Origin: a virus
DNA: 64,000 nucleotides
IMG/VR virus record: IMGVR_UViG_3300042010_000106
Span: 62,001 to 126,000 of that record
Strand: one strand, 5' to 3'
How positions within the stretch are numbered: the first letter of the stretch is position 1; each line of letters begins with the position of its first letter. The translations under genes and the position numbers were made by a program. Below are positions 17,931-19,646 of this stretch, in pieces. The notes beneath the pieces are model-generated. The model worked only from the letters and a program-made list of their open reading frames with translations, was not told the origin of the DNA and did not search any database.

Positions 17931-18971
17931 ATGATGGATATTCTGCTGTATTGCTGCGTGGCTTTGTTGGGAGGTTACGCCGCTTACAAATACACTAACC
18001 ATGTGCAGCTCGCATGGATCGTTAGTGCTGCTGGTTCAATCGTTGCCGTTATCTTTTTCTACGTGGCCCTGTGGCTGTCTGCGTCTTCGTACGAAATCAT
18101 TAGCGGCACCGTGACAGACAAAGAAGTTGTTTACGATCCGACAACCGAATCATATTCGTGTGGTACGGATTCCAAAGGCAACAGCAAAACCTGTACGCGA
18201 ACCGTGCCGCGCTGGCGCTTTGACGTAGAAGCCGACGTAGGCAGTTGGTACGATTATTCCTACAGCCGCTGGAACGTGCCAAGCATTTATGAGAATGCAA
18301 AAATTGGCGAACCGTTCGCGAAAGAAAAAATGTTCATGAACTATCAGTACGTGAACGATGAAACGGTTTTGGTGAACAAGCTCGACGCGTACGAAGGCTG
18401 GTTGCCTGAATACCCAAGCGTTTACGAAGGCTACAAAGTTCATCGCGCTTTTTCGAATGTGGTCAACGTATCCGAACTGAATGCTGCGCTGGCGAAAGCC
18501 GAACAAGTGTGGGGCAAGAAATTCGGCGTGAACGTAATCGTCAACGTCGTGCCTGAAAAAGAAGCAGGTTTCGCCAATGCCCTGCGCAACAAATGGGTAG
18601 GCGGCAAAAAGAACGATGTTGTTTTGACTCTCTACGTCAACGCAGAACACCGCGTTACGAAAGCAAACGTTTTCAGCCGGTCTACCTCGACCAAGCGCAC
18701 GGATACGTTCGCCGATTTCAATACAACGCTTCGTGAAAACGCACAACGAATTGACACGCTCGCTACGCAGAAAATCATTGGCGTTATCGACGCAGCTTTG
18801 CCACTGTTCGAACGTGAAGACTTAGCAGAGCATGACTTCGGCGCCACGTCGTATAGCGCTGCGTGGTACATAAACGCATTGGGCATATTCGTTGTTTTGC
18901 TCACCTGTTTCGGAACTGTAAAGTGGTTGGGCGGGCAACGTAGTTTCCGCCGTAGCTCATGGGCACGCTGA
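17931..18971 (+). CDS. membrane protein with large soluble loop, LemA-neighbour
   Basis: 346 aa. Two N-terminal transmembrane segments (~3-18 and ~28-50), a ~260-residue soluble part, and a C-terminal segment (~313-335). The loop begins with a beta-rich CGTDSKGNSKTC disulfide-like pair; residues ~165-270 (VNVSELNAALAKAEQVWGKK...VVLTLYVNAEHRV) could resemble a TPM/YgcG-like fold, low confidence. It is the first of three overlapping or adjacent membrane genes, ahead of a prepilin-like peptide and a LemA-like protein, so a shared envelope role is likely. Start could be either of two adjacent ATGs. Confidence 0.85.
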   Translation: MMDILLYCCVALLGGYAAYKYTNHVQLAWIVSAAGSIVAVIFFYVALWLSASSYEIISGTVTDKEVVYDPTTESYSCGTDSKGNSKTCTRTVPRWRFDVEADVGSWYDYSYSRWNVPSIYENAKIGEPFAKEKMFMNYQYVNDETVLVNKLDAYEGWLPEYPSVYEGYKVHRAFSNVVNVSELNAALAKAEQVWGKKFGVNVIVNVVPEKEAGFANALRNKWVGGKKNDVVLTLYVNAEHRVTKANVFSRSTSTKRTDTFADFNTTLRENAQRIDTLATQKIIGVIDAALPLFEREDLAEHDFGATSYSAAWYINALGIFVVLLTCFGTVKWLGGQRSFRRSSWAR

Positions 18972-19066
18972 TGAAAAAGCAAAAAGGTTTTACCCTGATT
19001 GAACTGCTGATTGTGGTCGCCTTCTTGTTGGTTGTTGGCACCTCGATCTACAAAGCAACTCACTAA
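18971..19066 (+). CDS. 31-aa prepilin-like peptide (type IV pilin N-terminus only)
   Basis: The product begins MKKQKG and continues FTLIELLIVVAFLLVVG, ending after SIYKATH. KG|FTLIE is the textbook prepilin peptidase (PilD) site: Gly at -1, Phe at +1 (methylated in pilins), Glu at +5, followed by a hydrophobic helix. Normal pilins and pseudopilins have 100 or more further residues; here the mature peptide would be 25 aa, only the helix that anchors a pilin in the inner membrane. The ATG overlaps the previous stop (ATGA), the neighbours are membrane genes, and the frame is intact. The ribosome site is weak, consistent with coupling. Probable location: inner membrane. Function unknown; interference with type IV pili or type II secretion is a hypothesis. 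Confidence 0.75.
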   Translation: MKKQKGFTLIELLIVVAFLLVVGTSIYKATH

Positions 19067-19091: not shown

Positions 19092-19646
19092 ATGTTCAGC
19101 AAATACAAAGGTTGGATCGCTGCTGGTGTTATCGCCGTTTTGGCACTGATGGCAATCAGCATCAACAACACCGTGGTAACGCAAGAAAGCGGAATCATCG
19201 GAGCCAACAAAGCACGTCAAGCCACGCTTTCGAATATCAGTCAGAAAGTGAAGGAAGTTATCGGCGTCAAAAACATGAACGTCGAGGACATCCAGAAAAC
19301 CGTCAACGAGCAAATCAAATTGCGCGCTGGTGCGGACGGCATGAAAAACATGGTGCTGATGTTGAAAGAACACAACATTGCCCCGTCGCAAGAAGCCGTG
19401 ATCAAGATCATGAACATCATCGACACAGGGCGTGAAACTTTCCTGAAGCAAGAAAACATGATGACTGATCGTAAGACTGCTGCCTGTATGTTCCGCAGCC
19501 GTTTCCCGAACAATTTCATCATCAACATTATGGGCAGTGCCAAACTGAACATTGGTTGCTTCGACGGCCAAGACGATTACGCGCCTTTGATGAACGACAA
19601 GGCAACAGAATCGTTCAAGTCCGGCGTTGATGGCGGTCTGTACTAA
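19092..19646 (+). CDS. LemA-like membrane-anchored protein
   Basis: 184 aa. One N-terminal transmembrane helix (~8-26), then a helical domain with the LemA layout: NNTVVTQESGIIGANKARQA (LemA: pairs with YN.LV...) and, near the C-terminus, DTGRETFLKQENMM...FRSRFPNNFIINIMG (LemA: R..YN..V..fP.n...). LemA proteins are helical membrane-anchored proteins of unclear function found in bacteria and some large phages. CAAGGAAAATGAAGTA upstream. Followed by a terminator, so it closes the membrane set. Confidence 0.7.
   Translation: MFSKYKGWIAAGVIAVLALMAISINNTVVTQESGIIGANKARQATLSNISQKVKEVIGVKNMNVEDIQKTVNEQIKLRAGADGMKNMVLMLKEHNIAPSQEAVIKIMNIIDTGRETFLKQENMMTDRKTAACMFRSRFPNNFIINIMGSAKLNIGCFDGQDDYAPLMNDKATESFKSGVDGGLY

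Follow-up and report, generated by a model that had tools for sequence, protein, structure and literature searches.

The N-terminal helix of a type IV pilin is the part recognized by the prepilin peptidase, the part that resides in the inner-membrane pilin pool and the part that docks into the filament, aided by Glu5. Among the phage proteins that block type IV pili are Tip of D3112 and Aqs1 of DMS3 (PMC8764522); both bind the cytoplasmic ATPase PilB and, unlike the peptide proposed below, are not pilin mimics. Closer in size is PfsE (PA0721) of the filamentous phage Pf4, a 30-residue, predicted inner-membrane peptide whose N terminus is suggested to be cytoplasmic; through its binding to PilC, it prevents both the extension of pili and superinfection (PMC8764522). 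Pilins devoid of a globular domain are represented by Geobacter PilA-N (geopilin domain 1), typically 61–90 residues long with its remaining helix, the C-terminal partner being specified by an adjacent gene of its own (PMC5174107). Finally, two short proteins of T4-like Aeromonas phages come close in form: Aeh1ORF040c (AAQ17699.1, 28 residues), annotated as 'similar to N-terminal sequence of bacterial secretion protein pilin', and PX29p038 (ADQ52757.1, 31 residues), annotated as 'similar to N-terminal part of fimbrial protein (pilin)'. Mini-prepilins are therefore a kind of gene already annotated; our literature searches found no paper on phage prepilins and no published function for mini-prepilins of the Aeh1ORF040c/PX29p038 type.

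The DNA analyzed here, referred to as the window, is a stretch of 64,000 nucleotides belonging to a 312-kb IMG/VR virus record that is distant kin of the Pseudomonas jumbo phages HRDY3, Lu11 and PaBG.

A 31-codon gene encoding a prepilin-type signal and anchor helix

The window contains an ORF of 31 codons on the plus strand (positions 18971–19066, stop included), which encodes MKKQKGFTLIELLIVVAFLLVVGTSIYKATH and ends with a TAA stop. The peptide is made of (i) a basic leader, MKKQKG (18971–18988), which matches the start of PF07963, ends in Gly-1 and is expected to be cut off after this residue, and (ii) a predicted mature hydrophobic helix of 25 residues, FTLIELLIVVAFLLVVGTSIYKATH (18989–19063), with no globular domain. 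The layout of a prepilin, namely a basic leader running into Gly-1, Phe+1 and Glu+5 and then a hydrophobic stretch, is entirely present (MKKQKG followed by FTLIELLIVVAFLLVVG), the three key residues being encoded by codons 18986–18988, 18989–18991 and 19001–19003, respectively. The helix extension and the C-terminal globular domain of a complete pilin or pseudopilin are absent: the ORF stops after 31 codons, and the next gene begins 25 bases past its end.

Two curated models recognize the peptide well over their cut-offs, Pfam PF07963 N_methyl (34.4 bits, E=1.4e-8; cut-off 21.2) and NCBIfam TIGR02532 (26.0 bits; cut-off 16.3). A home-made profile, built from 98 prepilin heads taken from other loci in viruses and phages, gave it 32.4 bits, compared with 7.2 bits for the second-best ORF of the window and 9.4 bits for the best ORF among 60 randomized (first-order Markov) windows. 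Its closest counterparts among sequences of solved structure are Geobacter geopilin domain 1 chains (residues 2–22, E=0.0034). The peptide is the sole N_methyl match in the 312,325-bp virus record, which thus contains no second pilin; PADLOC returned no match. Altogether, the sequence, both curated models and the randomized windows bear out the 31-residue Gly-1, Phe+1, Glu+5 ORF of the original prediction. The ORF encodes a genuine prepilin-type signal and anchor helix, far above chance, and its product belongs to the prepilin class by its N-terminal domain only, not as a complete pilin.

The stop codon of the upstream gene (TGA, 18969–18971) and the ATG of the mini-prepilin at 18971 overlap by one base, forming a TGATG junction (18969–18973, plus strand) in place of the four-base ATGA overlap initially described; ATGA overlaps do occur at several Aeromonas, Nankokuvirus and PhiXhv prepilin-like genes. 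Note that an in-frame ATG at 18959 is another possible start, which would add MGTL (18959–18970, plus strand; 35-residue ORF, 18959–19066) and leave the prepilin motif unchanged. Since no Shine-Dalgarno sequence is visible at either ATG 18971 or ATG 18959, translation of the mini-prepilin probably depends on coupling to that of the upstream gene, and the TGATG junction is consistent with such coupling.

An accessory insertion between two conserved genes

The upstream neighbor (17931–18971, plus strand) encodes a 346-residue membrane protein of phrog_2087 (E=1.2e-59), possibly TPM-like: a TPM_phosphatase match was obtained with its Lu11 homologue, at a score below the cut-off (E=0.0036). The downstream neighbor (19092–19646, plus strand), which has its own Shine-Dalgarno sequence, encodes a 184-residue protein of phrog_1383 (E=3.3e-40), labeled 'virion structural protein'. 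The claim that this neighbor is LemA-like agrees with the annotation of its homologue in the PaBG record; however, Pfam LemA does not match the protein, and a Foldseek search with its AlphaFold model (mean pLDDT 72) gave no significant fold match, Thermotoga LemA (2etd) coming at rank 9 without significance, so that the LemA label is unproven. No terminator-like site lies on the plus strand between the three genes. Neither neighbor is a gene for a C-terminal pilin domain, as a split pilin would have beside it, and both are kept in relatives that lack any pilin part. The window helix therefore differs from Geobacter PilA-N, with which it shares the lack of a globular domain, in ending at 25 residues with no adjoining partner.

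The flanking pair is found in the same order in all four of the nearest relatives found, i.e. the Pseudomonas phages HRDY3, Lu11 and PaBG and one 314-kb metagenomic record, none of which displays the prepilin motif anywhere in its available sequence. In HRDY3, PaBG and the 314-kb record, no small gene separates the two; in Lu11, the gap is occupied by an unrelated 61-residue gene (L006:5728-5913), so that small accessory genes may tend to insert at the phrog_2087/phrog_1383 junction. Searches of viral contigs, with single sequences and with profiles, recovered Lu11, PaBG and two more contigs (LemA-like identity 47–67%), none of which contains the ORF. At the other prepilin loci tested, no convincing LemA or TPM neighbor was found, the one match being weak (L112, E=0.007). 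Given that the relatives keep both flanking genes without the prepilin motif, the mini-prepilin of the window is an accessory insertion in one phage, and the expected conservation of the ORF beside the LemA-like gene is not supported.

Bare prepilin helices in Aeromonas phages

A tblastn search with the window peptide pointed to a frame of 27 residues, left unannotated, in the Aeromonas phage phiAS5. Frames of 27–28 residues occupy the same place, after nrdB, in phiWae14, Aeh1, AsFcp_1, AsFcp_2, AsFcp_4, Ah1 and avDM12-TAAL, and a frame of 31 residues (29 from the second start codon) in PX29; all these phages are T4-like. The frame is kept but unannotated in phiAS5, phiWae14, AsFcp_2, AsFcp_4, Ah1 and avDM12-TAAL (L128:2004-2087, L136:654-737, L138-L141:637-723, L185 about 602-688), and the AsFcp_1 record is devoid of any annotation. 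Like the window peptide, Aeh1ORF040c and PX29p038 consist of a bare leader and helix of 27–31 residues, score over the N_methyl cut-off and are encoded by large phages; an overlap with the upstream gene is likewise seen for Aeh1ORF040c. Unlike the window gene, they lie after nrdB and not in a phrog_2087/phrog_1383 pair, they are preceded by a Shine-Dalgarno sequence and their leader is MKG or MKMKG. The likeness claimed here is that of the motif, not an alignable similarity extending past it.

Between phiAS5 and Aeh1, pS is 0.72 and pN 0.19, i.e. a dN/dS of about 0.09, a rough value obtained from 27 codons with pS near saturation. The protein has been kept while the DNA has not: in Aeromonas phages, purifying selection acts on the bare form. 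The selection that the original prediction proposed to look for is seen in this Aeromonas set; for the window copy, the four nearest relatives offer no homologue from which to compute a dN/dS. Short prepilin ORFs do recur in other phages, the Aeromonas phages being a case in point, but they are absent from the nearest relatives.

Other prepilin-like genes of viruses

Short prepilin-like proteins are encoded by other viruses as well. A 37-residue mini-prepilin is found in AhSzw-1, a T5-like Aeromonas phage, and bare or nearly bare helices of 28–43 residues in further viral contigs. A 353-kb contig encodes MKKQKGFTLIELMIVLSFVAAAAFAGTAIYVAVHFISKFW (40 residues) behind a clear Shine-Dalgarno sequence. 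Pattern scans of IMG/VR gave 157 prepilin-like proteins, all distinct and complete, of which 15 do not exceed 45 residues, counts that are not frequencies, since the scans favor the leader types searched; two of the 15 have no hydrophobic helix and look like chance matches. Nankokuvirus-type Pseudomonas phages encode longer prepilin-like relatives (59–65 residues, 39 records), with a whole-gene dN/dS of 0.2–0.6 in the pairs compared. Among isolates, prepilin-like genes are present in phages of Pseudomonas, Aeromonas, Vibrio, Acinetobacter, Xanthomonas and Synechococcus, all of which are genera with type IV pili or type II secretion.

Profile comparisons relate the window peptide (E from 4e-6 to 2e-3) to phrog_10597 (the Nankokuvirus family, 59–65 residues), phrog_13280, phrog_11263, phrog_27437, phrog_3433 (a cyanophage pilin) and phrog_11596, which share its N-terminal signal; unlike the window peptide, these families (profiles of 59–187 positions) have C-terminal parts of their own past the helix. 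The Nankokuvirus genes of PAK_P5, Ab04 and Ab17 (L127:2001-2189, L202:401-598, L003:4001-4180) are identical except for the length of the helix, which differs by three or six codons (ILA repeats), yielding proteins of 59, 62 and 65 residues, respectively. Exact internal repeats of the helix also occur in other viral prepilin-like proteins, with IELLITLVIAA present three times in a 62-residue protein and IELLICCAIGG twice in a 74-residue protein (L032:1573-, L093:1421-, L027:3010-).

Several of the longer proteins combine a prepilin start with another module. In Xanthomonas phage PhiXhv-15 and Erwinia phage Ep032, a 99-residue protein called 'type IV pilus subunit' (L002:5001-5300, L130:2001-2300) has a prepilin start and a phrog_902 C-terminal part, giving the impression that a prepilin signal has replaced the anchor of a small phage protein. 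Two proteins of 65 and 74 residues (L104:6367-, L154:5987-) display a second hydrophobic segment after the prepilin start; in these, the signal may have been fused to a small membrane protein of two helices. A recurrent family of 63–75 residues ends with the conserved tail C..GG.W.EG......CTY/CTYN (L012, L028, L036, L037, L105, L034, L027, L008), and two viral contigs of 244,834 and 246,964 bp encode related prepilin-like proteins of 66–67 residues ending with CTPVQ.WDDDF (L226:7432-, L230:1496-).

A putative pilin-mimic decoy

Tentatively, and at somewhat less than an even chance, we propose from these sequence features that the window gene encodes a pilin-mimic peptide, processed by the host, which would disturb, within the inner membrane, the assembly of type IV pili or of the type II secretion system. 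What follows on its expression, processing, target and benefit is inferred. The peptide would enter the inner membrane with its leader inside, and the host prepilin peptidase is predicted to cut it after Gly6 and to N-methylate Phe1; processing would depend on the host because the phage record has no match to Peptidase_A24, the prepilin peptidase family. The 25-residue mature helix would keep Glu5 yet be unable to make a normal filament subunit, and could thus act as a decoy in the host pilin pool. More specifically, it could (i) occupy the platform protein PilC/GspF, (ii) be read by PilS as plentiful pilin and thereby lower pilA transcription, a direct interaction between PilS and PilA being known to serve autoregulation in Pseudomonas (PMC6058289), or (iii) load the prepilin peptidase. 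The expected outcome in infected cells would be fewer type IV pili, or less type II secretion. The role of decoy or poison subunit seems the likeliest, since a helix without its head should still undergo processing yet fail to yield a proper subunit.

By analogy, a block of pili or secretion by such a peptide, with superinfection exclusion as a possible effect, is plausible. PfsE may serve as a functional precedent, with no homology claimed: it depends on an aromatic YxWGW motif (PMC8764522), whereas the window peptide is devoid of Trp and has a prepilin signal in place of that motif. More broadly, bare-helix prepilins might constitute a recurrent counter-pilus strategy of phages that arose more than once, in which the host peptidase would activate a poison subunit, which would either stall the assembly of type IV pili or of type II secretion or cause PilS to turn off pilin synthesis, shielding the infected cell from rival phages; this generalization is less likely than not and somewhat more doubtful than the proposal made for the window peptide.

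Origin of the gene and alternative explanations

Two potential sources of the window gene were considered and rejected. The first is recent capture from a known bacterial pilin. No genome of the collection searched encodes GFTLIELLIVVAFL, and MKKQKGFTLIELLIVVA is encoded by seven genomes (assemblies labeled Acidobacteriota/Acidobacteria, Aminicenantes and Gallionella), in every case within a pilin of 134–184 residues; hence, the window gene does not derive by recent fragmentation from any pilin gene in the collection. The second is tandem duplication of the N terminus of the LemA-like gene. The similarity at the DNA level was reached by 95 of 500 shuffles; at the protein level, it exceeded that of the shuffles for PaBG and Lu11 only, and is uninformative since any layout with a basic start plus a helix would give it.

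The strongest alternative to the pilin mimic, albeit an unlikely one, is that the gene is the captured start of a pilin gene, a non-functional relic sitting between two conserved genes and perhaps transcribed and translated. Its restriction to one phage, with no counterpart in HRDY3, Lu11, PaBG or the 314-kb relative, would fit a relic, as would the missing Shine-Dalgarno sequence and the unrelated small gene in the Lu11 gap, since the junction may simply collect inserts. A relic, however, would hardly be expected to display an intact and exact motif, an in-frame start and a clean stop; besides, no source gene was found, the genes with the same leader being full-length pilins, and purifying selection maintains this minimal form in Aeromonas phages.

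We consider it improbable that the peptide is instead a small membrane partner of the phrog_2087/phrog_1383 pair, prepilin-like only in look and never meeting the pilus machinery. The position of the gene, between the two members of the pair and touching them, and the lack of a plus-strand terminator-like site among the three genes are in keeping with such a role; yet the relatives keep the pair without the mini-prepilin, the other prepilin loci tested have no convincing TPM or LemA neighbor, and the Gly-1, Phe+1, Glu+5 motif would stay unexplained. Very improbable is a role as an envelope-stress trigger, i.e. a truncated pilin that would activate an AlgW/DegS-type protease from the periplasm, like PilA108 in Pseudomonas aeruginosa PAO579, where a truncated PilA with a C-terminal FTF leads to mucoidy via AlgW/AlgU (PMC3684759). 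The Aeromonas mini-prepilins do end in -IF, but neither the -ATH end of the window peptide nor the -LFH end of the PX29 peptide matches the C-terminal F signal, and the window peptide has almost no periplasmic part. Least probable of all is a chance or non-coding ORF, a reading that its shortness and missing Shine-Dalgarno sequence might suggest but that is countered by its profile score relative to the randomized windows, the two curated models and the TGATG junction.

Implications

The known phage inhibitors of type IV pili target PilB (Tip, Aqs1) or PilC (PfsE). A pilin mimic, if the proposal made here is correct, would follow a different route, one that needs processing by the host and that could strike pili and type II secretion together where the peptidase is common to both. 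The Aeromonas set provides a selection signal for a kind of gene that some annotations have missed, and the window gene an independent case, in a jumbo phage. If the proposal holds, such peptides would also constitute a minimal probe for the action of an isolated pilin helix in the membrane.
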